Made by a program: the position numbers and the translations under genes. A DNA stretch of 64,000 nucleotides from Ulva prolifera (Eukaryota; Chlorophyta; Ulvophyceae; Ulvales; Ulvaceae). The notes beneath the pieces were generated by a model, which did no database searches, was not told where the DNA came from, and was given only the letters and a program-made list of their open reading frames with translations. Where the stretch lies: assembly GCA_023078555.1 (NCBI GenBank), contig CM041197.1, forward strand, positions 372,001-436,000, in the 5' to 3' direction. Positions 7,610 to 36,435 of the stretch are shown here, in pieces; within the stretch, counting starts at the first letter, position 1; every line of letters starts with the position of its first letter.

Positions 7610-8340
7610 ATGTCCCCATCTGGCGTCATCGAGCATGGTGGGTGTCTTCGGGGGCGATTCCCTGCCGCCTACCATGCTGCGGGCAAGTAGTGAGTCTGGA
7701 AGATGGTGAAGCTGCGAAGACGTGCACCACGTGCGCTGCAGTGTTACAAGGACAAACGCAGCAAGGCGGGCGGCACCGCGACAGAAGCAAACAGACGAAG
7801 CAAACACACAGACACGCACGCACGCGACACTCACCACGCCCAGGAGACCCACCACCGGCGCAACAAAAGACACAGATCCGCAGACCACCAAGCACACACC
7901 CACACACCCACACACCCACAAACCCGAACCCACACACGCACACACAGACCCCACGGCCGGCACACAACATCACAACCACCCACACCACAACGCCCGCCGC
8001 CGTACGACAGGGCCAAACCCAACACACTGCTGCCTGAGGCCGCCCATCATGGCCGCCCGATTGCTGGGGGCCGCCCTAGCCCCAAGACCCACCCCCACCC
8101 CACCGAGCCACAGCACACCACGCCAGCCCGGCACACCGCCGCGCAGCCTCGCCGGCCCACGCCGCACCGCACCCAGGACAATGCATCGCCCAAGCCGTCT
8201 CCGCAGTCCTTGCACATGCCAACGAAGGCACCCCGCACACCATTGTGCGGTGCAGTGCATCCGTTGCAGCTTGGCACGGCATGCCGGGACTACGTTCCAG
8301 CAGCACGCACCAAGTTACATCAGATCAGATAACATCGAAA
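7610..8340 (+). pseudogene. Decayed exon 1 (RING-like) of beta-helix locus 1
   Basis: Clear relic of the zinc-loop exon found intact at 17892-18134. The aligned ATG is at 7610 and the conserved core is CRLPCCGQVV...KTCTTCAAV, followed after an insertion by PLQLGTACRDYVPAA. Lesions against the intact copy: two extra bases near 7634 that shift the frame between the ATG and the zinc loop; a 507-bp retroposon-like insertion at 7744-8250; a 24-base deletion between GCAGC repeats after DYVPA; and loss of the sequence around the 5' splice site. It lies 0.7 kb upstream of the intact exon 2 at 9052, the same order as in the sister loci. Either locus 1 now uses another first exon or it is dying. Confidence 0.7.
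7744..8250 (-). mobile_element. Retroposon-like element, copy 2, inserted in exon 1 of locus 1
   Basis: Reverse-oriented copy of the CCTTGTAA-ended family (TTACAAGG at 7744). It is flanked by a 7-bp duplication, TGCAGTG, at 7737-7743 and 8251-8257. The empty site is visible in the sister exon near 17990, where the coding sequence runs straight from GCTGCAGTG into CTTCCATTGCAG. The strand shown carries C-rich ACACCC runs, so the sense strand is GT-rich. Confidence 0.75.
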
Positions 8341-9051
8341 AGACCTGGTGCGTCGCTCCAGTTGGTCCTTCGTCGCATCTCGGACAGCGTGCGCCAGATC
8401 GTCTGCGTGAGAAGTCAAAGGCAACTAGCGCGCTCAGATCTGCAAGCAACACCCGCATCACTCAGATGTACCTCAAAGGCACTGTTACTGCGTATGCCGC
8501 GGCATGGCAAGCTTGGTTGCTATTCCGGGTAGTCTGTCCTGTGTTGCCGACATGGCCGAAGACCTGCCTCAAATGCAAAGTCAAGCAAGCTTCGAGCAGC
8601 TTTGAACGGGAACCTTCGAAGTATCGATTGATAGTTCTGCGATTCCAGTGTCTATGCGAGGCCCAACTGTATACGCATGCCAGCCGCAGCTGCTGCACGT
8701 CCCGGTCAACAGCTTGGGTAGCCCTCCGGGGAACAGCCTGGCATGGTCTACGAAAATCCCTCATGAGCCCGAGCTGATCACCTGTCTCTCTGTTTTCCTT
8801 CTTGCAACGTACGCACCCCAGCTGATCAACATATTCAAGATTCCATGAAAGACAAATGGCATCGTTGCCCCCACTGTCAACATCGCGGGCAGCATCGGTT
8901 TCTAGTCTACCTGAGACGCAAGCTTCCTCGCGGCAGATAGTGACAGCTGAGGCAATTATATGCGGGAAGAGGTCTGCAGCAGTTTCGCATAGCACTGACC
9001 GTTCCAAGCAACGACAGCCAGCCCAAGCCCTATGATCCGGAGCACCTGCAG

Positions 9052-12000
9052 GGCGGTGTGAATAATCTTGAAAACTTCGTGGCGGCCATCTCCTCCCTCC
9101 GCACGAGGAACCTGCAGCTTCGCCCCCAGCACCTGCCACTACACACGAAGTGCCATTTGCAGCCTTTACGCCGCACCAGGTCGTGGCAGCCCTCGGGAGA
9201 TGCGAAGTTCATGGTGTGGCGAGCAACAACGTTCGGCTGTGCTGTCCAGGCCGGCGCCGTTGAACTGCCGGAGCGGGGGGTGCTGCTGCTGGCCGGCGCC
9301 GGCGCACGCTTCCACGGCACCACCTTCACTGGTGCGCACCATCGCCATGCGTGCCGCTGCCAGGACCTCGTCTGTGCTGAATCCCAACAGAGTACTGATT
9401 GCTGTGTTCACGTGTATCCCACGATCTTTGGAGTTTATGTGTATCCCACGATCTTGTGTGTATCCCACAATATTTGGAGTTTCAGCTCCAGGCACGACAG
9501 CCCACAGTGCGAATGGCCATGTACCGCTGTATTGTACACTGGCCATGTACTGCTGTATTGTACACATATGTGCATGGTCATGTGCATGCTCCATACATGG
9601 CACTGCAGTTGGTGTGTGCACCATCCATGAGTGCATCCTTCCCGACCTTCCACATGCATGCGGAGGACTGGGCTCGCACCTATCCGCAGGGCTGGCCCCC
9701 TTGAAGGTCAGAAGTTTTATTCCACAGCCCATGATATACACAGCCTCCATGGTCCATCATCACGCATGCATGTTGCAGGCGGAATCGTCATGTGCACCGG
9801 ACCGCAGTTCTTCGGACCCTTCCAGAACTGCACCTGCCATGCCTCCGCGGTGTATGCCGTGCACGGCGCCGCCGTCACGCTGCGCCGCTGCGTCATCCGC
9901 GACAGCCACCCCGGCCTCATCCTTGCCGGCAGCGCCACCTCAGCCAAGCTCGCCCAATGCGTGTTCCAGGACTGCTGCACCTGCATCGCTGTGGACCGTG
10001 GCGCGGCGGCAGCCGCAGCATCCTGCGTCCTTCAGCGCACCCGCGCCGCTGTCACTGTGCATGGGCTGCACAGCCACGTCTCGTTGGACAGCTGCGCTGT
10101 CAGCGGGGGGTCAGAGGATGGCTACGGGCGTACCGGCGTTGCAGCTCGCGGCGGGAGCGCCCTCCTGCGCCACTGCGAGCTGAGTGGATGCCACACCGGT
10201 GTTCTCGGCACTGGCGGCACCACGTCGATCGAGCTACACCTGACAGTCGTCACAGGCGGGTCCACCCATGCAGTCAAACTCATAGGCGGTGCACGAGGCC
10301 TCCGCGGCGACTGCCACCTCAACGTTGCCGATGGGCTGTGCGCCGGCGCCTCTGCCGGACCGGACTCTGATGATGAGGAGGCTGCTGTGGTGGTCGATGT
10401 GGTGGATCGGCAATGGCTTGGCGGGGCATGCATGCAGCTGCAGCAGACCTCGGTGTACAACAAGAGGGGCCGAGGTGTTGCAGTGACCGACGGTAGTGCG
10501 GCAGACATGAGCCTGTGCAAATTCGAGGCATCTCGTCAGGCGGTGCATGCTTGGTTGGGAAGCTCGGCCACCCTCTCGCACTGCAGATGCAAAAGCCTGC
10601 ACAGTTGTATATTCGCTCTGGAGAGCGCGAAAGTGCGCGTTGTTGGCGGTCGTTACGAAGGCAGCTCTACAGCAGGCTGTGTCAAAGCATTTGCGGTGGT
10701 GATCGCCGTCGACTGCGAGCTGCGCGCCCGCAGTGAACCCATGCCCTGCGGGATCCTCATGGCGTCGTACGGGTCGGTGGTGTGGCTTCTGCGCTGCTAC
10801 ATGCATGGCGGCGCGGCTGGGGTCACTACAACAGAGGAAGACGTCACCGTGCATGCCATTGACACAATTGTGAGTGATATGCTGATCACGGTGCCGCAAC
10901 AGATCAGACCGCAGGCAACACACGATGGCTCCACAGCTTTCAGCGGAGCTGGGTACTGTTTGGCAGCCGCCGGCGGCCGGGTGACGGTGAGAGGGGGCCA
11001 CGTGGAGCGCTGCGGGATTGGGCTTGCGACGCACAGCAGCGTCGAGGCAGAGGGAGTAGAAGTCATCGACTGCACGGTTGGGATAGTGGTGGACGGGCAG
11101 AGCGAGGTGGAGGTGGCACGGGGCGCCTTCAAGGCCCTCCGCCGTACCCGCGGCAGTGAGTCGCCGGCGGATGTGAGCAACGATAGTTGCCGTGGTGGTG
11201 CGGATACAGTGGTGGTGGTTCGGGGTCAGAGACGCTGCGCTTTGTCGGCCTGCACTTTTAAAGTCTACGGTCTGGGCCTCTTTGTCACGTCGCCAGGCGG
11301 CGTCGTTGTCAGCGGCAGCAGGTTTGAAATTTCAGGGGAATGTGCTTGGGGTATCCTGGCGAGTCAGAACGTGACAGTGGAGGGTTTCTCGTTCGTAGGG
11401 TCCGGGAAGGGTCCTAATCTGAATGGTGTGAAGGCGCTGAGGCGGGCGGAGTGCGTGATCCGCCGCTGCAGCATGCATGGGCTTCGGAGGGACTCAATCA
11501 CCGCCGATGCGCAGTCTTCCGGATCCATGCGTGTGTTTATCACAATCATCTGTGATGGCGGCACCAACGGGCTCGCGGTGAGTGGAGAGGGGTCCCTCAC
11601 CGCGCAGGACTGCCAGCTGTCAGTCGCCGGCAGAGGCGTTTTCGTCTTGGGGGGCGTCTTCAGCGGGAGGAGGGTGAATATACAAGCCAGGGACACCGGG
11701 GTCGTGGCCGACCCGTCCCCCGGCGCCGTAGCGGAAGTCAAGCTCGAGGACTCGGCCATCGACGGCGGTCTCATCGGGGTGTTTGCGGACGGGGCGACAC
11801 TTGCCATGTCGTTGCTGCGCTGCCACGTCTCTGAATGCTTCAGCGGTGTCATCCTGCGCGGGGGCGCAAGTGCCCAAATCACGGGATGCAACGCGACGCA
11901 GTGCTGGGTCGGCGTGCAAGTCGGGGACTCGGAGATTGACCTGGCAGGGGATTGCGACGTGTGCCACTGCAAGGGGGACGAGACTGAGCGCGAGGCGGTG

Positions 12001-12270
12001 CGGTTGTTGTCAGATCACGGCGGGGCGTCTGTGGTGGGGGCGGGATGTGCGCACGCCGGTGCCGTCACGCACGCACGCATGGCACAGGTGGAGTTTCGTG
12101 CGTGCCGGCATGACGGTGTGGTTATACACCCCCATGGCCACTTGCACGCCGATGAGGTGTCGGCGTGGAACTGCGGTGCAGGGTTCCGCATGCATTACAT
12201 TGCGGTTCGGAGTGAGTTCTGGTGCTGCAAGGCGGTCGAGTGCGGCGTCGGGACGGTTGCACTGCAGTAG
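9052..12270 (+). CDS. Right-handed beta-helix protein, locus 1 (exons 2 and 3)
   Basis: Two exons, 9052-9331 and 9779-12270, joined in phase 1, give 923 codons plus stop. Exon 2 follows a CACCTGCAG acceptor and encodes a conserved module (LENFVAAISS, VELPERGVLLLAGAGARF, GTTFTG). Exon 3 opens with GGIVMCTGP and consists of repeated short beta-strand rungs rich in Gly, Val and Cys (such as YAVHGAAVTLRRC), the pattern of parallel beta-helix (PbH1/pectin-lyase-fold) proteins. No catalytic site of a polysaccharide lyase stands out, so I call the fold, not an enzyme. The TAG at 12268-12270 looks premature: the frame stays open to a TGA at 12373 and reads a stretch resembling the tail of locus 2. 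The upstream zinc exon is a relic (7610-8340). The last exon is convergent with locus 2. Confidence 0.8.
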
Positions 12271-12428
12271 CTGCGTCACGCGGCAGCCGGCGTGCAGCCG
12301 CCGGCGCAGCTTGAAGAAGTTCGAGTTTTTGGAGCAGCTGTGTGTGATGAAGCTCCACCAAGGCCACAGGGATGAGCCTGTTCGGTTTGCAGTACCTGTG
12401 ACTAGCTGTCACGGCAATGTGTAATGTG

Positions 12429-12965
12429 TTACAAGGACAAAGGCAGCAAGTCGGGCAGCACCGCGAAAGGAGCAAGCAGACGAAGCAAACACCAAGACAC
12501 CCACGAACATCTCACCCATCACCGGCGTAGCAAGCGACACAGATCCGCAGACCGCCAAGCACACACCCACACACCAGCACACACACGCACAGACCCACAC
12601 ACCCACAAACCCAAACCCACACACGCGCACGCACAAACCCCACGGCCGACACACAACATCACAACCACCAGCACCACAACGCCCGCCGCCTTACGACAGG
12701 GCCAAACCCAACACACTGCTGCCTGAGGCCGCCCATCATGGCCGCCCGATTGCCGGGGGCCGCCCTGGCCCCAAGACCCACCCCCACCCCACCAAGCCAC
12801 AGCATACCACGCCAGCCCGGCACACCGCCGCGCAGCCCCGCCGGCCCACGCCGCACCGCACCTAGGACACTGCATCGCCCAAGCCGTTCCGCAGTCCCCG
12901 CACATGCCAACGAAGGCATCCCGCACACCCATCGGACCCGGCCCAGCTGGAGTCAGAGGCCACAG
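12429..12965 (-). mobile_element. Retroposon-like element, copy 3
   Basis: A 537-bp insertion starting TTACAAGGACAAAGG on plus and flanked by an 8-bp duplication GTAATGTG (12421-12428 and 12966-12973). It is nearly identical to copy 4 at 42996 over its length but lacks about 105 bases present at the far end of copy 4. That is consistent with 5' truncation of a retrotransposed RNA. It sits between the convergent beta-helix loci 1 and 2. Confidence 0.75.
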
Positions 12966-12973
12966 GTAATGTG

Positions 12974-13877
12974 TAATGTGTAATGCATGCTGTGCGAACA
13001 GGGGAGCTTGTACCTAGCAATCGCAGGGGGCTTCCTGCAGTGCGTGTCCAATGCCATCATGCATGCAGTCTGGTGGTGATGGCATTACCCAATGGACAAC
13101 GTCGCAGACACATACTGGTGCCTGGGAGTTCCATGTATCGACAAAGATTGAAGGCGTCGATTGCAAGGGACGTCGGTCATACACTGTCAGTGCCGCTCAG
13201 GAATCGTGTACGTGGTTGCATTGTTCGCATGAGTGACGCTTCTCTGGCCACAACCTGGCTTGGAATCTACCTCTGTAAATCTTCGGTCGTCGTTCCTTTT
13301 CCTTGCAGGGCGCACTGTCGACTACGTATGGAGAGGTCTCGATGGACATGTGCCATGCCTATAGACATGCTACCTCGTCAGGACAGCATGTACATGCCAC
13401 TGCGAACGGGTGATTACGTGTGTGAGTACCTACCTGTATTCCTGTGCAGCCCACCAGCCCTGCATTGTTCTGATGGCACCGAACTCAAGTTCAGGCAACA
13501 ACTGCTTGGCCACTGCAGACTGCTACTCCTGAGACTATTGTGAGATAAGATTACAGCAGAATCAATGCTGGGTGGCGAATAGCACCAACACCCAACATAC
13601 ATGTATATTCTACATAATATAATGGTATACTCTGTGTACAATTGTATACTCTACACAACATAATGCGCGCAAACCTCTGCCCGACCAGGCGTGCTAAACC
13701 GCACAAGTCACCCCTCCCCTGAATAGTGGTAGCTACAATTGATGTATACGCGTCCCAAGATCCAGATTGCCGATCCGGCCTGGCGAACCATGCACGATTG
13801 ACACGGTTTTCATTTGTTGTACACCAGTGAAATGTTCTCAGACACACACGCGCCGTGACTGCGGATACCTGCGATAG
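12974..13877. other. No assignable gene
   Basis: Intergenic space between convergent loci 1 and 2. A long open frame at 12983-13543 shows no domain and no sister elsewhere in the window. The stretch 13600-13660 is AT-rich with repeated TATACTCT/ACATA motifs and could hold 3' ends of either gene. Confidence 0.3.
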
Positions 13878-16800
13878 CTAGTCACAAGCCCGGCATTCAT
13901 CACAGAGCCATCCCGGTGGCTCTGGCAACCGCAGTTCATACACCTCGATCTCAGGGATCGGGCCCGCAGGCAGCGTGTAGTCCACGTCGGTGCTCGACCG
14001 CTGAAGCGCCACCGCCCCCGTGTCGCACTCCACCGCCTTGCAGCGGCGGAACTCGCTTCGCACTGCGACGTAATGCATGCGGTATCCCGTGCCGCAGCCC
14101 CAAACCAATGCACCGTCGACGCGTACGTGGCCATGGGGGTGCACCACCACGCCGTCGTGGCCACACCCAATCACCTCCACATCCTCCATGCGCGCATGCG
14201 TCACTGCGCCCGTGTGGGCACACGCCGCCCCCGCCACAGTCGCCCCGCGATGTTCTGACAGCACCCGCACCGCGTCGCGCCGCGCTCGGTCCCCCCTCCG
14301 GCCACACACGCAGCACTCCGCTGCCAGGTCGCCACCCGAGTCGCCGACTTGAACTCCTACCTGGCACTCCACCACTTGACTCCCCTTCACACGTGCACTG
14401 GCGCCTCCGCGCAGGACAACCCCGTTGCAGCAATCTAGGACGTGGCAGCGGAGCAAGGACAGGTCAAGTGACGGCCCCTCGCCGCACACGCCGATATGGC
14501 CGCCGTCGACCTTCGAGTCCACGAGCTTGACCTCCGCCACAGTGTCTGGGGGAGGGTCGGCCGTGAGGCCGGTGCGCCCGGCGTCTATACACACGCGCTT
14601 CCCGCTGAAGACCCCCCCCTCGACACGGACTCCTGTGCCGGAGACTGACAGCTGGCAGTCCTGAGCTGCGAGTGACGCCCCCTTGCTGACCACAAGCCCG
14701 TGCGCGCCGCCACAAGAGATGACTGTTTCCAGAACACGCACAGATGACTGCATGTCGGCCTGGACAGACTCCCCGCGGAGCCCCTCCATGCTGCAGCTGC
14801 GGATCACGCATTCCGCCTGCTTCAATGTTTTCACACCGTGAAGCTTTGGACCCTCCCCGACTCCCACGAACGCGCATCCCTCGACTGTGAACACGCCCGT
14901 TCCCAGGACGCCCCAGGCACATTCCCCCGCAACTGTGAAACTGGTGCCGCTGATGACCACCCCGCCTTGCGAGGTCACCACGGCACTATGCACGTAGCCA
15001 ACAAACGTGCAGGCCGTCACAGAGCCTCGCTTGTGACCCCTGAATGCCACACCTGTCTCCGATTCACGAGAGTACCGGTCATTGCGCAAATCCGCCGGTG
15101 GCACGCTGCCGCGGTCTCGGCGCGGGCCTTTGAAGTCACAGCGTGTCATGTCCACCTCGCTGTGCCCAATCACCTCCATCGCAACCACGCAGTCGACAAA
15201 CTGTACCTCCTCCGCGGTGACGCCGCCATCTCGGCCGCGCTCGCTCTGGACCTCGAGCCCCAGCACGCAGCGCTCCACGCGCCCACCTCGCACCGTCGCG
15301 CGGCCGCCGATAAAAAAGTACCCTGCCCCGCCGGAGACTCAAACGTCTTCTGGCCGCGGCCCGCACTGTTGCGGCACCGTGGTCAGCACGTCACTCACGA
15401 TCGTGTCTACGGCATGCACGGTGGCCTCTGCCGCCATGACCCCGGATACACCGCCGTGCACGTGGCAGCGCAGGAGCCACGCCTCTGCCTCAATCGCCAC
15501 CGTGACCACGCCACGGGCTTCTGGCACGTTGAGGCCTCGCAGCTCGCAGTCACCACCGCAGACTCCTTAACCAAGCATGCTGTAGAGCTGCCTGCGTAGC
15601 AGCCGCCGATGAGGCTCACCTTCGCGCCCTCCTGCTCGGCGGCGAGACAGATGTGCTGGCTGTGGGCAATGCATTGCGTGAGCGTGGCCACGCTCGCGAA
15701 AACAGAATACACCGCCTCGCGAGATGCCTCGACCTCACAGCGATACATGTCCACCATGCTACCATCGGCCACTGCGACACCCCGTCCGCCCTGCTTAAAC
15801 ACTGAACTCTGCTCCAGCTGCATGCGTGCGTTGCCGAGCAGAGGCGACCCTGGAGACGGCTCTGTCACCCCGACCACCACAGCAGCGTCCTCGTCATCAG
15901 AGTCCGGCCCGTCATCGTCGCCGGCGCACAGCCCTTCTCCGACGCTGAGTCGACACGCGCGGCCGAGCGCTCTCGCGCCACGCATCAGCACGACGGTGGA
16001 GGTGGAGCCCCCTGTGACCACAGTACCGTGGAGTTCGATGGAGGTGGTACTGCCGATGCCGAGGGCGCCGGTGTGGAAGCCAGAGAGCACGCAGCTCCGC
16101 AGGAGGGCGCTTCCGCCGCGGGCGGCAATGCCGGTGCGCCCGCAGCCATCCTCCACTGCCCCGCTGAGTTCACAGCTGTCCAACGAGGCGTGGCTGCGCA
16201 GCCCATGCACGGTGACGGCGGCGCCACTGCGCCGCAGGAAGCAGGTGTGCACAGCGACCTCTGCACCTTGCTCCACCGCAACGCTGGTGAAGCAGCGCTG
16301 GAATGAGCATTCGACGATAGTGGCTGAGGTGGCGGCGCCGCTGGCGGTGAGGCCGGGGTGGCTGCTGAGGACGCGGCAGCGGCGCAGCGTGATGGTAGCG
16401 CCATGCACGGAGTACACTGAGGAGGACCGGAAGGTGCAGTTCTGGAAGGTTCCGCGGAATCGTGTTCCTGCGCACATGACGAGGCCACCTGCACCATGCA
16501 TGCGTGCTGACATATTGTGGAGGCAGTCGTTCGCAGCATGTGGTACACAAAGTCGGACGTCTAATGGAGGCAGCCGCAGGTGACGCGAGATTGTGGAAAG
16601 GTCATCAGTGCGTGGGTGGGCGAGAGGATCCAGCAACACGGATGCACGCATGCATGCAGCCCCAACAACTACACCACCCTACGACGAATACTCAACATTC
16701 CGACATCATTGAACAGATGTCTCAAGTCACTTTGGAGTGTGCTTTGGTACTCAGGACCAGTTTGACCAGACATCTCCACTGTTGCTGCATCGAAATGGCA

Positions 16801-18134
16801 ACGTGCAGACAAATAAACCGACCATCTTATGGAGTACTGCAATCCCATCGACAGCAGCCGCGGATTCTGCTCTACAAGAATGTGCTGGCAGCTCTGACAA
16901 GAGTATGCAGCCGCAATCGCACCTCTGAAGGTTGTGCCGTGGAAGTGTGCGCCGGCTCCAGCCAGCAGCAGCACCCCCCGCTCCGGCAGCTCGATGGTGC
17001 CCGCATGGACGGTACAGCCAGAGGTGGTCGCCTGCCACACCATGAACTTTCCCGCCCCCGAGGGCTGCCACAAGCGAGAGAACGGTGCAGGCTGCTGATT
17101 GCACTGCGTGCGCAGTGGCAGGTCCTGAGGGCCAAACTGCAGGTGGTGGGTGCGGGGAGAGGAGACGGCCGCCACGAAATCCTCGAGGGTCACGATGCTC
17201 ACACTGCTCTGCAAGTACACTACATCGTGAGGTACGGACCGGCAGTGAAATTTTTACAGTGGCTGCCTCTGGGGAGTGTTACAAACTACCAGCCAGACAT
17301 CAGCAGCCGAGCTGCTGTGATTTGCAGCGACTCGGAGGAGGTGTTCATGGCGTTGTGACAAGCTAGCTACTGATTCCCGATATGCTGAGTATGGTGGCAG
17401 TGACGCCATACATCGTTCATGTCAAGGTTCACCTAGTCCATGGTTGGTGTTCCCATGTGTTTCTTCAGAGTGTTCATGGCTGTTTCCTCGCTGTAAGCTG
17501 AAAGCAACCCATAGATGCTCACAGACCGCTTCACAGATGCATGCACAGCAACATGGAGCTATCATGCGCACATAGCGTACCTGTTCCGTATATAATCTTT
17601 TCGCTTTTAATTATGTCGTGTTATCTGCTACACAGCTGTTGTAAAGACGCGCTGGAAGGCATGCAACCGGCGGTAACTGAGACAAGCGAGCGTGTCGGCA
17701 ACAAGCCACGCTAGCATAATCACTTTCCAAGGCCCGCCAAGCAGAAATTCCAACATAATATGTGCTGCTGAGATACATAAGAGTGAAGCTAATGTGGTGC
17801 TCGCGCGCAGACCTGGGCGACTTCTCACGCGGATGATCTGGCGCACACGTGTTGACACTGGGCCAACAAAACAGCTGCTGTAACGCACCACGTACTTACG
17901 CTGAGGCTGTATCTGACGTAACTTGGTGCGTGCTGCGCCTGGCCAGGTTAGGTCCGCTGCTGGAACGTAGTCCCGGCATGCTGGGCCAAGCTGCAATGGA
18001 AGCACTGCAGCGCACGCGGAGCAGGTCTTCGCTGCTTCAACATCATCTAGATTGACTACTTGCCCGCAGCATGGTAGGCGGTAGGGAGTTGTCCCCGAAG
18101 ACGCCCACCACTCGATTGCTCCCGATCGCGACAT
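13878..18134 (-). pseudogene. RING-like/beta-helix protein, locus 2, with frameshift and in-frame stop
   Basis: Exons on the minus strand: exon 1 17892-18134 (MSRSGAIEWW, then YRLPCCGQ...CSACAAV zinc loop), exon 2 16923-17208 (LEDFVAAVSS, IELPERGVLLLAGAGAHF), exon 3 13878-16488 (GGLVMCAGTRF, beta-helix rungs). Exon 2 begins after TTGCAG in phase 0 and ends in phase 1, as in every sister. Exon 3 is closest to locus 1. A net frameshift near 15550 and an in-frame TGA at 15339-15341 break it; similarity to locus 1 continues in the appropriate frame on both sides. The C-terminal tail contains GPIPEIEV, shared in part with loci 3 and 4. Exon 1 also stays open past the splice site to a stop at 17628, adding two hydrophobic segments. 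The coding state is doubtful unless the lesions are sequencing errors. Confidence 0.7.
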
Positions 18135-19221: not shown

Positions 19222-22200
19222 TCACAACACTACCACAGGCACAACCTCAATCTGCGGGATGGCCACCGCCGGCATGTCAGTGCCAACTCTCTCTGCCGCC
19301 GACGCCACATCACATCCGACGGCGCGGCACCCGGCAAACTCGCTGCGCTCCCCAATGTAAATCTCCTTGAACCCAACGTCACACCACTCAGCCGTCACCC
19401 TCTCCGCCGACACACGCCCATTCGGGTTCACAAACACCGCCTCGTCCCGGCACTGCGCCAGGTGGCAGTCGGCCATGCGGAGGCGCACCACCGCGCCGCG
19501 GTGAGCGCACAACTCGGCCCCCGGCCGCCCCCCGTCCCCGCCCCGAAGCACCTTGAACGCCTGCTTGAGAGCAGACACCCCCGAGGCCCCGCAGACACGG
19601 CAGCGAAGCATCAGGTCGTCGAAGCACTCCCCGACCATGACGGCCATGCGGCAGCGAGACACTCTGCAGTGCGTCACCCGCATGTTGCTCTGCCCGCCCA
19701 GCTGCATGCCCCAGGAGGCGCCTTCGATCCTGCACCGCCGTAGCGACCCCTCGACCGCGGTCTGCACGAGGACCCCTCCCCGGCCCCCAGACAGCACGCA
19801 ATCGGCGAGCTTGAGCGCCATCGGAGCCCGGGAGCCGTCTTGCTTGGTCAGAGTCGCCTGCAGCTGTATGTCCGTCGCCTCGAGCGTCACCCGCTTCGCG
19901 CTCAGCGACCCGCCCCCGCCCGTCAGCGACATCCCGACTTCAGCGCCAGAGACGCTGCAGTCCTGCACCGCCATGCATGCCTCGTTGTGGACCGAGAAGC
20001 CGAGACCACCACCGTCAACCTTCACATCGACCGCCGTCACTGAGCACCGGCCGGAAGCCGAGATCCCGCTGCCCACACCTGTGAAGCAGCAGCGGCGGAT
20101 CTCGCACTCTGAGCCGTCCAGTGCCACGACGGAGAAGGTGTCCTCCCCTGCAACGGCCTCGGCCACGCAGTCCTCGACGACGACCTTGCCCGACATCATG
20201 AAGCACATTTCGCGCTCCAACGACACCTTGAAGCTGCAGTGGGCGACCTTCACCTCCCGCGGCGACAGGTGGCGGACTCCGGACGGGTGGCCCTCGAAGC
20301 TGCAGTGGGCGACCGTGCCGAACGCCGTATCCCGGAACAACACGGCGACGCTGGCTTCCGGCGTGAAGCGGCGCTTGCGCATGTCTGCTGCGGCGCCGCA
20401 CTCGAGGCCCGGTCCCCTGAACTCGCACGCGGCGACGTGGACTTCAGCGCCGTGCCCGGCAAGGACGCCGACGCAGCAGTCCGTGCATTTGACCCCATCA
20501 ATAGATACGCAGGGCTCGCCGAACTGACCCTCCTGCGTCTCCACCCCGACCACGCACCGCTGCACGCTGCCACCCACCACCGTCAGACGTCCCCCTAGGG
20601 CTGCAAATCCAGCACCACCCTGGACCATGCCGCCCGTAGGGTCCTCCCGGGCCGGCATGACAACCCTGACGTCGCTCACAGTCATGTCGACAGCATGCAC
20701 GGTGCCACTAGAGCACAGCACGCCCATGACCCCGCCACGCACATGGCACCGCAGCAGCCGCGCACTGGCCGGCCCAAACACAGAGATCACCCCGCACGCG
20801 TTTGCCTCACCGCGGCCGCTGCGGAACTCGGACCCGACCGCTGTGAGCTTCGCGCCGTGATTCATCATGCACACGTTCATGCTGCCCATGTAGAGCCCGC
20901 CCTGGAGCCGCAGCTCGTCGTCCGGGCCGAAGGCCGACAGACAGCAGACCGGGCTGTCGCCACGGCAGTGCGACAAGGAGACGCGGCCGCCCCCGGCCGC
21001 CGTCCGCAGCACCTCTGCGGAGCACGTGAAGCGGCACAGCGTCGCTGCGACGGCCCCACAGCCGCCGGCGTGGATGCCCCGCGCCCCCACGGCCCAGCAG
21101 CGAACCTCGCAGCGCTCCGCCTGCATGCATGCGCCGCCGGCGCCCCCAAGCATCGTGCAGACGTCGAGACCGGTCCCAAAGGCCTCGGTGTCTGCGAGGC
21201 CGCCGCAGCGAAGCAAGGTTTCACGGACGAGCGCCCGCGCGTGGTCGCACAGCACGACTCCCTCGAAGGAGTTGGTCACCTCGATTTCTTGCAGCTCGAG
21301 TGAAGAGTCAAAGCCTCCACCGAACACGGCCACAGCGAAATGACTGAGTCTGCAGCGCATCAGCTGCGCTGATCCGCGGCGGACGGCCACTCCGGACTCG
21401 CCATCAATGCTTGCACCGGGAAGCGTGCGGTCGCCACTCACCACGCAGTCCTCCATCACGGCGTGGCTACAGGGGCCGGAGACCGTCACAGCGCTCGCCG
21501 ACAGCGCCGTGCGGGTGAGGTGGCAGCCGAGGGCTGACACAGCCGCGCCGCAATCGACGGCGATGCTGGTGCGGCAGTTGTGGATGGATGTCGCGGAGAG
21601 GGTGATGTAGGTGCCTTCGCCACTGGCGGTGATGCCGGGCTGGCTGTCGGCGATCCCACAGCCGCGGAAGGTGACGGCGGCGCCGTGGACGGCATACAGC
21701 GCGGTACCGCGGAAGGAACAGTCCTGAAAGGATCCGCAATGCTTTGCGCCAGCGCACATGACCACTCCACCTACGGGAGAAAGGTACATCAGTGCAGACA
21801 TGGCCGGAACGTCGGTGAGGTTTGTCTCATATGAATTGTTGTTAACAAGGGTGCATTCTGCTAAACTGTCGAAGCTGCCTACACGAACACAGGAGCAGAG
21901 CAACACATAGCAGGCTGGGGAAGGGTGCCACGAATGGCATGCCATGCTGTAGCACTACCTCATCTGCACCAGCGCCCAGCAGTGCCATGGCCACCAGAAC
22001 CAAGATACACAGCAGCAGCTAGAAGAGCGCACCCGTGAAGGTGGTGCCCTGAAAGTGCGCCCCGCGGCCTGTCAGCAACAGCACGCCCCGCTCCGAAAGC
22101 TCAATCGCGCCATCATGCACGGAGCAGCCATAGGTAGCTGCACGCCACACGTGGAAGGTACGATCGGGTGGCGGCCTCACTTGCAGCGGTGCGGTCCCGA

Positions 22201-22881
22201 GGGAGAGGTGGCTGCCTGGTGACGACGACATTGCGGCGACGAGGTCGTCCACATTGTCAATCACAGGGGAGGCCTGCATGCACGCCTCGGATGCATATGT
22301 CTGCCATAGGAGCACACCAGCGGCTGCCCGTTCCACCGTAAGTGTGACGGGATTGTTGATGTTACAACGCCTGCGAGACGGCTATTGGCATCATCGTGCA
22401 CGGGTTGGAGAAGCTGGCACAGCTGCGGCATGCACATGTCCACTCTTGCAGCTGGTGAGACGCAGAACAGCGCCACAGGCACTACCTGAGTCAGAGCAGG
22501 CAATATGACGTTGCTTCGAACTTACTGTGGCGTGTGCTGATTGGATCACGCGGGGTTGAGGGCAAGATGCACGAAGATGCAGCTGACGCAAACACTGCAT
22601 GAGAAACATGTGCAGAACAAGAAGAGAGACAGTATAAAGCCGCACACCTCAGTTTGACCTACCAATCGAAGGTGATTGGTTTTCGTGCACTCGGCCCAGG
22701 GCCAGGTCAACGTTTCTGAAGGCACATAGTCCCGACTCGGACGTCGCTGCAAGGGCGGAACATCTCCACAGACGGCGCACTGCACCTCAACAACATTCCG
22801 CCGCGAAATCTGGATAATGTGGCCACATGACGGCAGCCGGCATGGCACAGCCTTGCGTTCTCGCCACAGCTCATGCGACAT
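19222..22881 (-). CDS. RING-like zinc loop + right-handed beta-helix protein, locus 3 (intact)
   Basis: Three exons predicted: 22648-22881, 22033-22273 and 19222-21770. They sum to 3024 bases, 1007 residues plus stop, with no internal stop. Exon 1 (MSHELWRERK) carries C-x4-C-G-H and C-x2-C (PCRLPSCGHI, CAVCGD), then RDYVPSETLTWPW; this is one RING/U-box-like zinc site, not a full two-site RING. Its donor GAG/GTGTGC is in phase 0. Exon 2 follows GCATGCAG in phase 0 and holds VDDLVAAMSS and IELSERGVLLLTGRGAHF. Exon 3 starts GGVVMCAG and runs through many Gly/Val/Cys-rich rungs; the end reads IPQIEV. No signal peptide or membrane span is seen, so an intracellular protein is likely. Zinc domain plus beta-helix recalls the E3 subunit FBXO11, so substrate recognition for ubiquitylation is a guess. 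The exon 1 link rests on order and phase, not on transcripts. Confidence 0.75.
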
Positions 22882-24465: not shown

Positions 24466-24511
24466 GTGTTTAAAGAGGCTTCAGGTCGGCGGGCCACATC
24501 TCAGGTGAACA

Positions 24512-25228: not shown

Positions 25229-25454
25229 CGCCTGGTTACCAATGGTAACTCACCACAACTTTCTTTTGTGTAAAAATGGTTTGATCAGGTCGACTTGATC
25301 TGTTGAGTTGTAGTTTAGCAGCCCTCGTGCGGAAAGAACCCATGCAGGTCCACGTGACTGAAGCTATATGCCATGGAACAGTATCTGCGTGATGACTGCT
25401 CGACAGATTCATGTTGCTCAATATCTTCTATAGCGAGGCCACACACCATCAACG

Positions 25455-26000
25455 CTGGCGCTTCCGCTTTGTGGCGGCGGTGGCCTTGGCCTGACATCCG
25501 CCTTGGGTGACCGGCCTTGCGCTCGGCGTGCCGCGCTCTGACGCTGCCCTTGCCGTGCGTTTGCGTGTGGCCCGCCGTCAAGGCGCGACCGCGGGGTTCG
25601 GGCAGGCCGGGCTGGGGATTGGGGGTCTGGGGTTACGGGTGGGCAGGGGGGTGTGCGGGTACTGTGCGGGGAGTACTGCGCGGCCCGGGGGGGGCTCCGG
25701 GGGGGTTGGTGTCTCGGTGTGTTTGGCTCTGCGGCCTCGGCTGCGTGTGCTTTCGGGGCTCTAGAGCCGGGCTGGTGGGCGGGATGCGAGTGTGGGTGGG
25801 TGGGCGTGCAGGTGTGCTTGTGGGTGTGGGGTGTGGGGGCTTGCGTGTGGGTGTGGCTGTGTGGCTGCACACATGGCCAGCGTGGGTGCTGCCGTTGCGT
25901 GGGTGTTTTGGTGCGTGCTTCGTGTGGCTTGTTGCGTGGTGTGCGGCTCCCCTGGTTCTTGCTTGCGGTGCTACCTGCCTCGCTTGCTTTGTCCTTGTAA
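25455..26000 (+). mobile_element. Retroposon-like element, copy 5, with 15-bp target duplication
   Basis: A 546-bp GT-rich element ending GCTTTGTCCTTGTAA on plus. It is flanked by a perfect 15-bp duplication CACACACCATCAACG at 25440-25454 and 26001-26015. It is more diverged from copies 2-4 than they are from each other. The longest duplication of the five makes it the best example of target-site behaviour for the family. Fixed 3' end, variable 5' end and duplications of 7-15 bp fit LINE-driven retroposition. Confidence 0.75.
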
Positions 26001-26015
26001 CACACACCATCAACG

Positions 26016-29000: not shown

Positions 29001-29400
29001 TGCGGCCGCCCCTCTAGATGCATAGCCCCCTGCAACCGCCATCGCCCTTCCCGCTGCAGCTGCCTTCAGTTTGGCCAACATATATATATAGACAGGTATA
29101 TACCTGACCTGTCCGCCGGAATTCTAGACACAAGCCGGACTCTCAACTGCAACACTGAACTTGCTGCTATCTCGAGATACTGTACTCGCAGGCATGAACG
29201 ATGTGAACACCGATGCCAGAAGATACATTACCATGGTAGTTCAGAAGTCGAGCAACACCAGCAAGAAATGTCCGCGACCCACCCTGCCTGCACGCATTTA
29301 TCCGTAACAATAGTTGAGTAGAGGCTCCAGAGTATGCAGGCGGAAGCTCCCAAGTACATTGTGACCGCCAGAGATGTGATCACCTAACTCGAAGACTCAT
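26016..29400. other. No confidently assignable gene
   Basis: Several open frames occur (26719-27015 on plus; 27996-28685 on minus, partly hydrophobic) but none shows a domain or a sister in the window. A small plausible exon starts at ATG 27721 (MQVADAMDHQGEQ) and ends at a good donor, GTAAGC, near 27852, but I could not extend it. The stretch 28120-28470 is C-rich and may be a very old copy of the retroposon family. Confidence 0.25.
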
Positions 29401-29419
29401 CATGCAAACTAGTTGTTGG

Positions 29420-30680
29420 AGAACCTTGCGTGATTGATACATGTTTGTTAGCCGAGAGGGCCACATCCGGTGCCGTTGAAGACAAAGCCTGTAGACACCA
29501 CCGGTGCACGTCACGGTCAGATCTTTAGCAGATCGCATTCCAGTGCCGAGGTTTGCATCTGAAGGTAGCTCGTGCTGCCTGGCATACAAACTATTCCAGT
29601 GCTCGTTCCATTTCGTTCTCCATTGCTTGTACTAATGTTCCAATGCGCCCTATGCTGAGCGCTCCACTAGTACCGTGACCACTTTACATGAGTCAATATT
29701 GTTTCCCACATGCACAGGCTGTTGGTGTACATGTGTACAAGTGCACTTGTACACATGTAGTCTGGTCTCGAGATCGAAACAATCAGTCGATTGCAGCATT
29801 GATCTCCATGGTCCACCAAAGTAGACGCACCTATTTACTGCGGTTACATGTATACACCAGCGGCATGCAATAGTCCAACAAGTGCCAATGGCGGGCCTGG
29901 GGGCGCGGAACAGAGGCCTCTGGTGCACGACACTTTATGCCCATGCCAGGCAGGGCCGTCACAGCCACAGTGAGTCCACCAAAGGTTGCCAGCGACCTGC
30001 AGTGGAATCAAATGTTATTCAAGCTACACACATGCAGACTGGCTAGGCGTCTGGCTTCGCCAACTGGCTGAGCCAGAGGCCAATGCTGGGTCGGTGAGCT
30101 GAGGGTACGTAGACAGGCAGCCATGGGCATCGCAGGCTTGAAAAGTTACTTCTAATTAGATTGTATTTGTACTGGTTGATTCGCCAAGCGCGACAGGCAC
30201 CACGCTCCGCAGGCCAGGAACACAGCGACCACGACTACCGAGCGGACAGGCAGAACATCGATCTTGGTATACGCCACTGCCCCAAACACCTCTAATGACA
30301 CTCAGGAAACTACAGTTGCATTGGCCAGCCGTGAGATGAAGTCGCATACCTTCCGCCGGACATCACTGCACCGCAAAATCCTGGCCGAGGATTAAAATCA
30401 GCTGCTCCACTGTAGCGAAGCAGCATGTAATCGTATCATTTGATAAGTAATCTTAACGTTGAAAGGCTAGATCCGGCTTGCGCCCTACAAGGCCTAGCCA
30501 GCTACTTTCCACCATCAAATCTGTAGCCTACAAAGGGCAGAGCCGCTCGAAGCTGGCGAACACCGCATTTAGGATAAACAATACAATCCAAAGTTGCTCG
30601 CGAGCTGGCCAGGCCCCTGGCTCTTCGTGCGCGGCTCGCCAGATCTGCCCAAAAGACGATGCCTTGGGAACACAATACCG
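29420..30680 (-). repeat. Right arm of a diverged inverted duplication
   Basis: Reverse-complement partner of 23240-24465, about 5 kb away, with several matching blocks in mirrored order. Small insertions and deletions are scattered through it. The frame corresponding to the hydrophobic segment of the left arm contains a TGA, which argues that at least this arm is non-coding or dead. Confidence 0.65.
29728..29759. repeat. Perfect 32-bp palindrome
   Basis: TACATGTGTACAAGTG is followed at once by its exact reverse complement with no spacer. It lies inside the right arm of the inverted duplication. The left arm has only a partial counterpart near 24168 (CACTTGTACACATG), so the palindrome arose or survived in one arm. 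Confidence 0.9.
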
Positions 30681-30689
30681 CCGCCACCG

Positions 30690-31252
30690 CGCGTCGACAT
30701 GAATTCGAAGCATAAAGCATCGATCCCGCATGCATCCACGTTTGGTTTGGTCTTTGCGGCTCGCACAATGCCACAGTCATATTATGAAATGGTACTGACG
30801 TCAAGTCGACTGTGCTCAATTGTACGAATTTGTACAATTGCTAACCCGAAAATGTCATCAGCCCTGCTCTTCATTATCATCTCGTTTCACTGAAAGCCGA
30901 CATGTCCTGTGGGAGGCGGCACAGTGCGTCTGTTCGCTTGAGAGACAATGCATTAGCAGGTGCTGCAGCACTCACCGTGACCAGCCCGCACTGGAGTAAA
31001 ACCAGAAGCATCTAGAGCGGCACAGGTCATCCACCACAGTGCCAATCCTTTCACGAACAGTATGAGGTGGGTATGAAATCATGTACACATACATACCAAA
31101 GCGCCTCCAGCCCCTGCTCTCTACCCACCACCTCTGCAGGGCATCCCGTGCCCCAAAACATCCTTCCCCAGGTAGCTACAGCATGAAAGCATGAGACATC
31201 TTCATACGCATGGAACACAAGAACCCTGACACAGCAATACAATTACAGGATA
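30690..31252. other. No assignable gene
   Basis: About 560 bases downstream of locus 4. Short frames only. It includes a small palindromic AT-rich stretch around 30820-30840 (CAATTGTACGAATTTGTACAATTG). Confidence 0.35.
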
Positions 31253-34200
31253 TCACTCCTCCGGCAAAGACTCAAACGCAATCTCTGGGATGGGGCCCTG
31301 CGGCGCAGCCCTGCCGTCAAACTCCTCCGATGCCACCCGACACCCAACGGCCCTACAGCCCGAAAACCGGTTGCGCACACGGATGCGGAGCACCGAAAAC
31401 CCAATGTCACACGCCTGCGCCGTCACCCGCTCCGCCACGACGTACCCGTCCGCAGCGACAAGCGTGGCCGTCTCACAGTGCGCCATGGTGCAGCCGGCTA
31501 TCCGCAGCCTCGCCACCGCGCCCGCGTGCACGCACGGCGCCCCCCTCACGCCCCCCGGCCCGCTGACGGCGACCGCGTCCATCGCCTTAGCAAACGCGGC
31601 CTCTCCAGAGATCCCGCAGACGAGGCACTTCTGCACCATTTCCTCTTCTCCGGACCCAGCGAGGACTGCGGTGTTGCAGCGCGAGAAAGAGGAGTCCTTG
31701 ATACGGACATCGCACGGCCCCCGCACACTGCAACCGAAGCCGGTGTCGGAGACCGTGCAACGCAGCAGTGACACCTCAGCTGAAGCCTGCACTGACACCC
31801 CCCCATGCCCTCCAGTCAACACGGAGTCAACCAGCTTGACCGTCATTGGTGCCCGCTTCCCGTCATGCTTCGTGACCGAAACCCTCAACTGCAATTCTGC
31901 CGCCTGTAGTGTCACGCGCTTGGCACTCAACGACCCACCGCCAGCACCCTCAAACGCAGCCGCGATTCGCGTGCCTGACACATGGCAGTCCTGCAGCGCC
32001 ATGCAGGCTTCATCGTAGATGGAAAACCCGACATCTGCGCCGTCAATATTCACGCTCAGCGCTGTCACCGTGCAGCGGCCTGTGGCTGTGACCCCGGTGG
32101 ACACCCCCGTGAAGCGGCATCGGCGCAGCTCGCACTGCGAGCCGGCGACCGCCGTCACGCCACTGGTCTCCAGTCCCACCGCCGCGCGAACACTACAGTC
32201 CTCCAGAGACACCTTACCGCTCACCAGGACACACCCTGCCATGCGCTGGTCATTTGTGAAACTGCAGTGGCGTATGCTGAGCTCGCGCGAAGATGCAGGC
32301 TGCGCGCCCAGGCGGAACCCCTCGCAGCTGCAGTGCGACACTGAACCGAACGCAGAGTCATGGAATGCAACGGCCATGCTAGCTTTGGCAGGGAACCGGC
32401 GGTTGCGTAAGTCCACCGGCGCGCCCTCCCGCCGCTGGCACTGCGGCCCCTGGAACTCGCACCGCGCCACATGGACTTCAGCGTTGTGCGTTGCGAGAGC
32501 GCCGACGACGCAGTCAATGCATGCGACGCCTTCGAGAGCGACGTGCGCAGCGCTGAGGCTGCCGTCACCCCCCCGCTGCGCCTCCACCCCGACAACACAC
32601 CGCCGCACGCTCCCGCCGTTGACTACCAGTCGGCCCCCGAGGGCAACATACCCCGCCCCACCCTGCATCAGCTTGCCCGTTGGGTCCCGGCGGTCCGGAA
32701 CCACCACCCTGATGTCGGTCACAGTTGTGTCTATCACATGGAGGGTCGCGTCTGAGCACATGGCTCCCATGACGCCGTCTTGCACGTGGCACCGTAGCAG
32801 CCACGCATGGCTCCCATCTATGACAGACACCACCCCACGGACCAGGGCCTCGCTGCGGCTGCGGAACTCGCACCCAATAGCTGCGAGCTTCGCACCGCCA
32901 CTCACCAGACACGCGGTCGCACTACCCTTGTAGAGGCCACCCTTGAGCCGCAGCATGTCTCCCGCGTTGTCAGCCGTCAAGCAGAAGCCGGGGCTCTCAC
33001 CGCAGCAGTGGGACAGGGAGACGCGGCCGCCCCCGGCCGTCGTCCGCATCACCTCCGCAGAGCACGTGAAGCGGCACAGCGCCGCCGCGACGGCGCCCCG
33101 GCCGCCGGCGCTGATCCCCCGCGGCCCAACGGCCCATCCGCTCACCTCGCAGCGCTCCGCCTGCATGCATGCGCCGCCGGCGCGTCCATGCATTGCGCGC
33201 ACAGCGAGCCCGGTCGCGAAGGCGGTATTTGCGAGGCTGCCGCAGCACAGTGGGCTGTCGCGGACGAGTGCCCGCGCGTGATCGCCCAGCACAACCCCCT
33301 CGAAGCAACTGGCCACTTGCACTTGGCGCAGCTCGATCGAAGACTCACCGCCGATGCCAAACGCGGCCGTGGTGAAGTGGCCGAGAACGCTGCGCGTCAG
33401 CCGCGCCGCTCCGCGCCGGACGGCGACACCGGTCTCCCCATCGATGCTCAAGCCGGTCAGCATGCGGTCGCCGCTCACAGAGCACTCTTCGAGCACAGCG
33501 TGGCTACCAGGGCCGGTCACCGCTACGGCAGCCGCCGACAGCCCCGTGCGGGTGAGGTGGCAGCCAAGGGCTGTCACAGTCGCGCCGCAGTCGACGGCGA
33601 CGCTGGTGCGGCAATTGTGGACGGACGTCCCGGAGACTGTGGCGTTGGTGCCCTCACCGCTGGCGGTGATGCCGGGCTGGGTATCGTACACACGGCAGCG
33701 GCGGAGGGTGACGGCGGCGCCGTGGACGACGTACACCGCGGTGCCGTGGAAGGTGCAGTTGTGGAATGATCCGGAATGCTGCACACCGGCGCACATGACG
33801 ACACCCCCTGCAGGACGGAGGTGTGTCAAGGTTCTGGCTATGAGGGAGTTCTCTCTGGGTGGTCAGTGATCGCGCAACATAAGCTGCTCTGAGAACCTCT
33901 CGGGATGTGTCCAGTCAGGACGTGTCCGCAGTCTCAGTTTGTGTCCAGGAGCACCACAGCAGGGGTACAGACCAGTGTTCGAATATTGGGGAAGCTGTCG
34001 TTTAGAGGCCGCTCAAAAATAAGTAATCCAAAATTTGGTCGGCCAAATATAAAGATTTTGACCTGTTTGTGCGGCTAGCCACCGCCAAATAAATAAGTTG
34101 AATCGAGACTATGAGCGGCTAGGATTCGCCACACATATAAACGTTTTGACACGAGTGGCGGGTAAAAGTTGTAACCTGAGCAAGGCTGCATTGCGTGTTT

Positions 34201-36435
34201 GTGCGTCAGCATGGAGCACGACGCCTTCAGCCCGTCTAGCTCGCTGCAAGCTGGTCTGTCCTCGGGGCGCAGCCAGTGTACGAAGAGACCTCTTTGCAAT
34301 TCAATTTCTAGTTTCTTTGGTGGCGCAAACAAGGTCGTCCACTTGGAGACTCGCCAAAAGCTTGGCAGGCCGGTGGACCCGTCGTCGACTCGCCAAGCGC
34401 ACATACGCAAGAAGCAAGAAGCAGCCAGCCAACCGCAAACTGAAGAAGTTACTGATGGCAATGATGATTCGGATCAGGAGAATGTCGAGGACGTTGGCGA
34501 ATATGGGAAGAAACAAGCTGCCAGACGACGCCGTGACGACATTGCAAACTACAGGCGATACTTGGAACGAGTGGAACCACCCGGTGGAGCTGACTCAAGA
34601 AAGACCTACGTCAGATGTATAGCTTGTACATGTATTTCTGGAAAACAGGTTGTGCTTGTGGATATGAAATGGCACCTGTGCGCGGTCGTTATTTGGGTCC
34701 GAGCCAGAAGTAGTGACAGTGGCAAATGTGTAAAACTCCGTGATCACCAACGACACATAATCACGTACCAAGGTGGCATCGTCGGCTACGCCCAACACAA
34801 AAAAAACTATCTGCCAACGTCTGTCGGCTAGCCCTCCGACAATTCATAATGACGGTCAGTTGAAAATTCGAACACTGGTACAGACAGCAGGAGTTGACTC
34901 TTTACCTGAGCTCATCAGCGAAAGTGGAATCACTGTTGAATGAGACACTCGTCATTTGGGGAGAGGTGCTGGCAGACGCATGCATTGGGCGCGAACGCAG
35001 GCAAGAAATGTCTCTGCAGTTCGGTCGTTCGCAGTGGTGTGTGGGCCTCACATGAAGACCAGACAGAGTGAATGCAGTGTGTAATGATAACATGGCGTCG
35101 TCGTCGCCGCCAATCAAATGATTTTGGGGGAGTTGAAGAGTGTGTAGTGACCCATGTGCCATTCTGCAGGACGCTGCAGCCAACTCAGCCCCCTGGCAGG
35201 GCCGTGGCCTCGTGGCACAACAGTGCCCCTGCGCGACTGTAAGCTGCAGCTTTGGCAGGTACGAGCAAGCACTCCGCACCTTTGAAGGTGGTGTCGTGGA
35301 AGTGTGCGCCGGCGCCGGCCAGCAGCAGCACCCCCCGCTCCGGCAGCTCGACGGTGCCCGCGTGGACAGCGCAGCCCGCGGTGGCCGCCCGCCACACCAC
35401 GAAGCTGCCCTCAGGTGGTGGCCTTACCTGTGGCCGCAGCGGCGTGGCCTGCAGGTGGACATGGCCGCCTGGCGACGCTGAGATGGCTGCCACGAGGTCT
35501 CCCACGTTGCATATTCTTGAGGCGGTCTGCATACATGGCTGCCGGCCTCGGTATCATCGGTTCAAGACTTCGCCTTAGAAAACATGAACGCACGTCCGGT
35601 GTCTAGATCAGTGAGGATGAATACCTTCCCTAGATGGGTCAGCTGTGGCCATGGTGTCCGGTGCAGAGTGGCGGTGGTGCTCACTGTCAATAGCTCCCCC
35701 AGAGTGTCGGTGGGTCAAACTCAGACAGTCAGCTTTGCTACAGCGCAGCAATTTTGCAAGTTCTGATGGCCTGAGATGGCAGTAGGCGATCAGAGACAGG
35801 TAGCTGTGCAGACCACGGCACGGTCAGACACCATCCTCTCCAGCAGTGTACATGCGCCCAAATGAAGGGCACGCAACCTCGCAGCACAGATCCCGACATC
35901 CGCAAAGCATAGGCTGTGATGCAGGCGGTGTCCACCTTCTTGCACAGGCGAGAGAGCGGTGTACTTGTGGCACAGGAGATTCCTGCTCCCTCACGCGATG
36001 GTCACCATCACATCAGGTCATAAACTTCAATTTCAAACCGATGATTCGTCAGAATGACAACAAGCCTCACATCACTTGGCACAGGCGAGTCCATTACGAG
36101 CAGGACGTGGGCTCCCGCATGCTCAGACTGTCCAGGCGTACGACGCTGCTTACAGAACAGCAGATGCATTGATGACGCATGGCAGAACACAATGGACGCA
36201 CCGTAGCCTGACCGATGAAGCGCAGGCGACGGGTCTTGGTGCGCTGCGCCCATGGCCAAGTCAACGACGCCGATGGCACGTAGTCCCGGCTTGGGTCGCG
36301 CTGCACAGGCGAGCCATTCCCGCAGACGGAACAGGATAATTTCGATGACTTGATGTCAGAGAGATGGACAATATGGCCGCAGGAGGGCAGCCGGCACGGC
36401 GCTGCCTTGTGTTCTCCCCACCATTCCAGAGCCAT
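31253..36435 (-). CDS. RING-like zinc loop + right-handed beta-helix protein, locus 4 (intact)
   Basis: Three exons predicted: 36202-36435, 35280-35526 and 31253-33807. They total 3036 bases, 1011 residues plus stop, with no internal stop. Exon 1 (MALEWWGEHK) has Cys14, Cys19, His21, Cys35 and Cys38 (PCRLPSCGHI, CSVCGN), then RDYVPSASLTWPW; it is exactly as long as exon 1 of locus 3. Exon 2 follows TGTATGCAG and carries VGDLVAAISA and VELPERGVLLLAGAGAHF; its donor is GTGCGG. Exon 3 starts GGVVMCAGVQHSGSF and ends with GPIPEIAFESLPEE. It is closest to locus 3 (shared CMQAERCEVSGWAVG-type rungs). Intron 2 (33808-35279) holds a hAT transposon at 33973-34877. The expected product is a soluble, mostly beta-helical protein with an N-terminal zinc loop; the function is unknown. 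Splice sites are manual predictions. Confidence 0.75.
33973..34877 (+). mobile_element. hAT-superfamily DNA transposon in intron 2 of locus 4
   Basis: Terminal inverted repeats CAGTGTTCGAAT (33973-33984) and ATTCGAACACTG (34866-34877) are flanked by a perfect 8-bp duplication GTACAGAC (33965-33972 and 34878-34885). An 8-bp duplication with CAGTG termini is diagnostic of hAT elements. At 905 bp it is too short for a full transposase, so it is non-autonomous. It is noticeably more AT-rich than the flanking exons. Complete ends and an intact duplication suggest a fairly recent insertion. Confidence 0.9.
34211..34831 (+). CDS. Short ORF inside the hAT element, possible transposase N-terminus
   Basis: ATG-initiated frame of 206 codons (MEHDAFSPSSSLQ) ending just before the right terminal repeat. 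It has an N-terminal SISSFFGG motif, which resembles the hydrophobic IxxFF element seen near the start of many hAT transposases and in PCNA-binding peptides. An acidic/basic middle follows (DDSDQENVEDVGEYGKK), then a CxxC pair (CIACTC). The catalytic and dimerisation parts of hAT transposase are absent. It may be a remnant left by internal deletion or a captured regulatory fragment. Confidence 0.4.
   Translation: MEHDAFSPSSSLQAGLSSGRSQCTKRPLCNSISSFFGGANKVVHLETRQKLGRPVDPSSTRQAHIRKKQEAASQPQTEEVTDGNDDSDQENVEDVGEYGKKQAARRRRDDIANYRRYLERVEPPGGADSRKTYVRCIACTCISGKQVVLVDMKWHLCAVVIWVRARSSDSGKCVKLRDHQRHIITYQGGIVGYAQHKKNYLPTSVG

Follow-up and report, generated by a model that had tools for sequence, protein, structure and literature searches.

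Gene copies in the window

The stretch analysed here, which we call the window, comprises 64,000 nucleotides of the green alga Ulva prolifera (bases 372001-436000 of contig 2, or C2, in a genome of 88.9 Mb and 44 contigs). RuBisCO small-subunit exons found on the genome's long contigs point to a green alga or a near relative, and a search for an exact TTTAGGG x4 pattern gave nothing. It holds five copies of a gene in which a small exon encoding a likely zinc domain is followed by a middle exon and by a 2.5-kb exon encoding a beta-helix. A first-pass annotation had described this order, on a common strand, at loci 1-4; order and strand are as claimed, and the coordinates match as well, locus 4 exon 1 beginning at 36435 in both analyses. 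A fifth, degenerate locus spans 47.7-63.4 kb. Loci 3 and 4 are open throughout, and loci 1, 2 and 5 are damaged. The parts of each copy are as follows.

36202..36435, minus strand: locus 4 exon 1, likely zinc domain, from the ATG to the phase-0 donor GTGCG
35280..35526, minus strand: locus 4 exon 2, N-terminal beta-helix cap, entered in phase 0 and left in phase 1
31253..33807, minus strand: locus 4 exon 3, beta-helix; frame uninterrupted as far as its stop codon
31484..31627, minus strand: locus 4 second likely metal site, C-x2-C-x27-C-x-H in the beta-helix insert
22648..22881, minus strand: locus 3 exon 1
22033..22273, minus strand: locus 3 exon 2
19222..21770, minus strand: locus 3 exon 3, beta-helix, open; second likely metal site at 19459-19602
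17889..18134, minus strand: locus 2 exon 1, with CGQ in place of CGH and Tyr in place of the first Cys
16923..17208, minus strand: locus 2 exon 2, longer form; acceptor read by eye, the automatic rule having chosen a nearer AG
13881..16488, minus strand: locus 2 exon 3, frame broken between frames 15407-16678 and 13878-15338
7663..8305, plus strand: locus 1 exon 1, damaged; pieces 7663-7764 and 8237-8305 flank an inserted repeat of about 490 bp
9052..9331, plus strand: locus 1 exon 2, longer form; acceptor read by eye from the sequence
9779..12270, plus strand: locus 1 exon 3, beta-helix, open; stops short of its neighbours' helices
47680..47940, plus strand: locus 5 exon 1, degenerate; weak profile match, E 0.012
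48520..48760, plus strand: locus 5 exon 2
62846..63396, plus strand: locus 5 exon 3, frame ending early, about 14 kb past exon 2

A tandem family with a fixed exon order

Profiles made from the first examples were run over 264 kb (the window together with C2:125001-325000) and recovered 30 copies of exon 2, so that the family exceeds the count of the first-pass annotation, whose claim of a repeated gene family holds. Upstream of 28 of these copies lies an exon 1 on the same strand, at a gap of 375-1322 nt measured between matched stretches. Locus 1 is counted among the 28 although its exon 1 is in pieces; the two copies with no exon-1 match are 173607m, whose helix is broken, and locus 5 of the window. 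Throughout the arrays, open copies adjoin broken ones. The same anatomy was found in one copy fetched from each of contigs 8 and 1, where GTACG or GTGCG follows exon 1, exon 2 ends in GGT, and exon 3 contains the insert described below.

Across the whole genome, 57 exon-1 matches (from two single-sequence queries) were set against all 118 matches to the beta-helix profile PF13229 with a limit of 6 kb. A same-strand helix match lies within that distance downstream of 45 of the 57, compared with a mean of 15.5 and a maximum of 25 pairs over 2,000 trials of a control with shifts of 8-60 kb, and an opposite-strand helix match lies downstream of two. The green alga's gene family, which joins a likely zinc domain to a beta-helix in dozens of tandem copies, is genuine.

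No description of such a family was found in literature titles and abstract openings, and viral contigs contained none of six peptide patterns taken from the locus-4 helix and searched for exactly. A protein collection yielded two relatives of the helix, among the 7,989 scored candidates richest in common words, and seven relatives of exon 1 at E<=10.

Exon borders and phases

Donor-like GTRYG motifs after exon 1 are distributed 22/4/3 over phases 0/1/2 at 27 loci; a phase-0 GTRYG is present at 20 of these, and at the seven with no GTRYG the models use a looser GT. Before exon 2, TGCAG motifs fall 25/1/1 by phase over 30 loci, with none at four in the stretch searched. At loci 1 and 2 the TGCAG so counted is not the assigned acceptor, which lies further upstream, beyond the stretch searched, and is also in phase 0. 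Exon 2 closes with a Gly codon that occupies one fixed position and reads GGT in every copy (30 of 30), against a background of 247 GGT among all 2113 Gly codons of the joined models; a phase-1 donor would produce this pattern. The phase preference of the splice motifs thus supports phase 0 between exons 1 and 2 and phase 1 at the end of exon 2, both as first proposed. The accompanying statement that the exon-2 donor is always GTGCG applies to all five window copies but to only 14 of the 30 overall, GT alone being constant (30/30).

An AG in matching phase precedes exon 3 at all 20 loci where an automatic rule found that exon, the rule itself having required a matching-phase AG within a few bases. 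The rule produced complete three-exon models at 17 of the 30 loci, none with an internal stop, although that of locus 2 in the window is cut short; it found no exon 3 at 10 loci, six of which have helix frames of 854-1081 residues and one a frame of 589. Identity between close paralogs (16 pairs) changes across the borders, falling from 0.82 to 0.39 at donor 2 and rising from 0.47 to 0.74 at acceptor 2 and from 0.46 to 0.79 at acceptor 3, with a weaker change, 0.45 to 0.31, at donor 1.

The beta-helix and its likely metal insert

That exon 3 encodes a giant right-handed beta-helix was supported by profile and by structure prediction. Exon 3 of loci 1, 3 and 4 scores 91.8, 86.4 and 90.9 bits against PF13229, whose cut-off is 25.9 bits, and the fold is predicted confidently as a coiled beta structure (predicted local distance difference test, pLDDT, 83.9). 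Many of the structural matches listed are polysaccharide lyases, epimerases and tailspikes, and alignment of the helix by sequence against solved chains gave no match at E<=0.01.

Towards its C-terminal end the helix has a C-x2-C pair, followed some 27 residues on by C-x-H. These four residues (726, 729, 757 and 759 in locus 4) are invariant in 19 of 19 aligned long frames, and a pattern search found them in all five remaining long helix frames, from loci with exon 2, that had not passed the alignment filter. From this conservation the insert is likely a second metal site, which the first-pass annotation had missed. As a query against the genome it gave 63 matches at E<=1, of which 49 have an exon-1 match upstream. 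Exon 1 and the insert occur together in 35 of 53 long PF13229 frames; of the others, four have exon 1 only, eight the insert only and six neither (Fisher p 0.014, in tallies from single-sequence queries that miss divergent copies); the two sites therefore tend to travel together. No Pfam family was common to more than one of 18 insert segments, and none of them gave a convincing Pfam or solved-structure match.

None of 17 joined models has a signal-peptide-like or strongly hydrophobic N-terminus, as judged by hydropathy only and not by a dedicated predictor, which suggests an intracellular protein. The 19 aligned helices contain 44-57 cysteines in 824-899 residues, many at fixed positions, a content that seems high for an intracellular protein. 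DPH, which is part of the mannuronan epimerase motif, occurs in one of the 19.

The likely N-terminal zinc domain

Exon 1 had been characterized by C-x4-C and C-x2-C pairs. The second of these is conserved, but the first Cys of C-x4-C is present in 12 of 28 copies only and is a subfamily feature. The candidate ligands conserved in nearly all of the 28 are instead C-x-H...C-x2-C, and from this pattern the exon-1 product is likely an N-terminal zinc domain. Three copies with Gln for the His (loci 1 and 2 and C2:274147-274407) carry an additional Cys immediately ahead of the motif (CCGQ), which would fit a shift of the ligand.

The zinc domain had been called RING-like and perhaps part of a ubiquitin ligase (E3), and searches of exon 1 with RING and SP-RING profiles had been proposed. 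A Pfam scan of 23 exon-1 proteins at E<=1 matched 29 families, 25 of which were listed. RING-class matches were weak: zf-RING_5 in two members (best E 0.06), Prok-RING_4 in one (0.003) and Prok-RING_1 in one (0.051). IBR matched three of the 23 (best E 0.022). Equal or better matches came from other zinc modules, namely rubredoxin-like in five (best 0.0022), the FmdE treble clef in two (0.00015) and other zinc ribbons in a few, and no family was common to more than five of the 23 among the matches listed. By sequence, the best solved structure was the zinc ribbon of RNA polymerase subunit P (E 0.0093), and the first E3 ligase followed at 0.17. IBR, RING_5, zinc-ribbon and treble-clef domains all have short Cys/His pairs at similar spacing. 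Taken with the low confidence of the fold model (below), these weak and mixed matches mark the exon-1 product as a small module that is likely zinc-binding, without deciding its class.

Membership of the known classes was considered in turn. A RING has eight metal ligands in cross-brace order, of which half are absent here, and no RING profile matched at its cut-off in the frames scanned, the best being zf-RING_5 at 14.7 bits against 27.9. IBR likewise reached 16.2 bits against 24.3, and the first Cys of C-x4-C is, as noted, confined to a minority of copies. SP-RINGs keep the ligand set C-x-H...C-x2-C, and this single-site spacing is present in nearly all 28 exon-1 copies; the SP-RING family zf-MIZ was not among the 25 of 29 matched families listed.

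Selection on the three exons

Of 120 pairs compared for each exon, the proportion of nonsynonymous differences (pN) was below that of synonymous differences (pS) in 120 for exon 1, 118 for exon 2 and 120 for exon 3, and by this measure purifying selection acts on all three. The constraint is tightest on exon 1 (median pN/pS 0.59, against 0.72 and 0.77 for the others, the helix having 0.77). Distances among copies are correlated between exons, with Mantel r of 0.84 (exons 1-2), 0.94 (1-3) and 0.89 (2-3); none of 5,000 permutations reached the observed r.

Interpretation

We propose, with a probability of about 0.5, that this is a lineage-expanded family of three-exon genes whose product is a beta-helix that acts inside the cell as a binding protein and has an N-terminal contact domain stabilised by zinc. 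Computation supports the order of the exons, their phases, the selection on them and the helix fold; for metal binding, splicing in vivo, location, ligand and the role of the zinc head, we infer the following scheme. The product would be a long rod of about 1,000 residues lacking an evident signal peptide. Its N-terminal domain of about 55 residues would bind one zinc ion through C-x-H...C-x2-C, and exon 2 would supply the cap that precedes a right-handed beta-helix of about 850 residues. The helix could offer a long binding surface to a protein or glycan ligand inside the cell, while the insert, with its putative second metal site (C-x2-C...C-x-H), might clasp or gate one end of it. The conserved zinc domain and the RD-x-VP...W tail may bind a common partner, such that copies would differ in the ligand bound and share what they report to.

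Several observations weigh against this proposal. Genome-wide, a helix match lies on the same strand within 6 kb upstream of 27 of the 57 exon-1 matches, in the reversed order; in a tandem array the gene in front would yield such pairs, so that the short, regular gap between exons 1 and 2 is a better argument than order by itself. No spliced full-length relative emerged when 932 candidates were compared with the N-terminal 190 residues of the joined product of locus 4 (none at E<=1), in a protein collection believed to come mostly from gene callers that do not model splicing. Among the 28 exon-1 copies the fourth ligand is Asn in one, the third is Arg in another and the His is Gln in three. 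The AlphaFold model of exon 1, built on 10 alignment rows, is poor (pLDDT 54.6) and does not decide the class of the likely zinc domain. The insert contains a predicted helix, partly at low confidence and in part with pLDDT below 50. A test for diversifying selection covered two subfamilies, of five and four copies; pN slightly exceeded pS in two windows of one subfamily and in no window of the other. With windows this marginal, ligand diversification or an arms race is not demonstrated. Finally, we infer splicing from conservation, read from DNA alone.

That last point leaves room for the view that exon 1 is a separate small gene, never joined to the helix. Its end is indeed the least conserved splice border, but the phase preference, the co-evolution of the exons and the genome-wide pairing make this view very improbable. 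A recognition repertoire for pathogens or for self and non-self, in which tandem birth and death supplies intracellular receptors that share one signalling head, is a possible though unlikely account. The large tandem arrays, the 63 genome-wide insert matches, the damaged copies beside open ones and a head held more tightly than the helix would all fit it, whereas neither subfamily gave clear evidence of diversifying selection. We consider it quite unlikely that the helix binds or acts on carbohydrate of the cell wall: polysaccharide lyases, epimerases and tailspikes are among its structural neighbours, but a common fold proves no function, DPH is nearly absent, and the N-termini show no export signal by hydropathy.

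An E3 of RING-like or SP-RING-like type, with the helix recruiting substrates as in FBXO11 and the zinc domain being its own, is likewise unlikely. The ligand set C-x-H...C-x2-C is that of SP-RINGs, and zf-RING_5, Prok-RING and IBR do match weakly; yet half of the RING ligands are absent, zinc-ribbon models fit equally well, the exon-1 fold model is poor, and the tests run gave no support for SP-RING membership. Of the original proposal, then, the fusion of a likely zinc domain with a beta-helix in a three-exon gene is supported, and the RING-like E3 part is not.

Comparison with known systems and significance

To our knowledge, few beta-helix proteins that work inside the cell also carry a zinc domain, and FBXO11, the familiar case, is the nearest arrangement. 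PMC8825234 describes FBXO11 as an F-box followed by three CASH domains, which are right-handed beta-helices serving substrate recognition, and a C-terminal UBR zinc finger; the algal proteins resemble this layout in joining a right-handed beta-helix, probably intracellular, to a likely zinc domain. They differ in that this domain is N-terminal, their helix has the C-x2-C...C-x-H insert, and they exist in dozens of tandem copies. F-box profiles gave no match at E<=10 in seven frames (exon 1 at loci 1-4, exon 2 at loci 1, 2 and 4), and UBR profiles none in the exon-3 frames at loci 1, 3 and 4 or in the 18 insert segments; FBXO11-type membership is not supported for the frames scanned. Proteins with PF13229 (Beta_helix) or PF05048 (NosD) have the helix profile in common with the algal family, which is set apart by its N-terminal domain and insert.

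A tentative and rather unlikely extension is that the family forms an alga-specific repertoire of intracellular receptors with two metal sites, in which a common zinc head would couple the ligand of each helix to one output. If true, that output could be degradation, modification or signalling, and the family would be a beta-helix counterpart of the NLR and F-box receptor expansions. Since zinc head and metal insert are conserved across dozens of tandem copies, the family is a natural variant series, which could reveal the ligand of the helix, the role of the insert and the partner of the head.

Damaged copies and other features

At locus 1, the ATG is, by our reading of the exon-1 pieces, out of frame. 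The repeat of about 490 bp within this exon (7751-8241) has near-full copies at 12436-12929 and 43003-43496, both about 85% like the locus-1 copy, and partial copies at window positions 4-96 and at C2:203-205, 292 and 319-323 kb. The helix of locus 2 is frameshifted; a near-identical open version exists in the public contig P0002, so the frameshift may be a strain or assembly difference. Between exons 2 and 3 of locus 5 lies a long open Copia polyprotein (gag, integrase and reverse transcriptase; 56195-60724, plus strand). Six long PF13229 frames elsewhere have neither an exon-1 nor an insert match (C3:9886996, C4:8183004, C6:112756, C8:5574158, C8:5595494 and C2:11599356) and may represent another class of beta-helix gene in this genome. 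The window also contains part of an animal-type haem peroxidase gene (39812-40705, minus strand; PF03098, E 1.2e-28).

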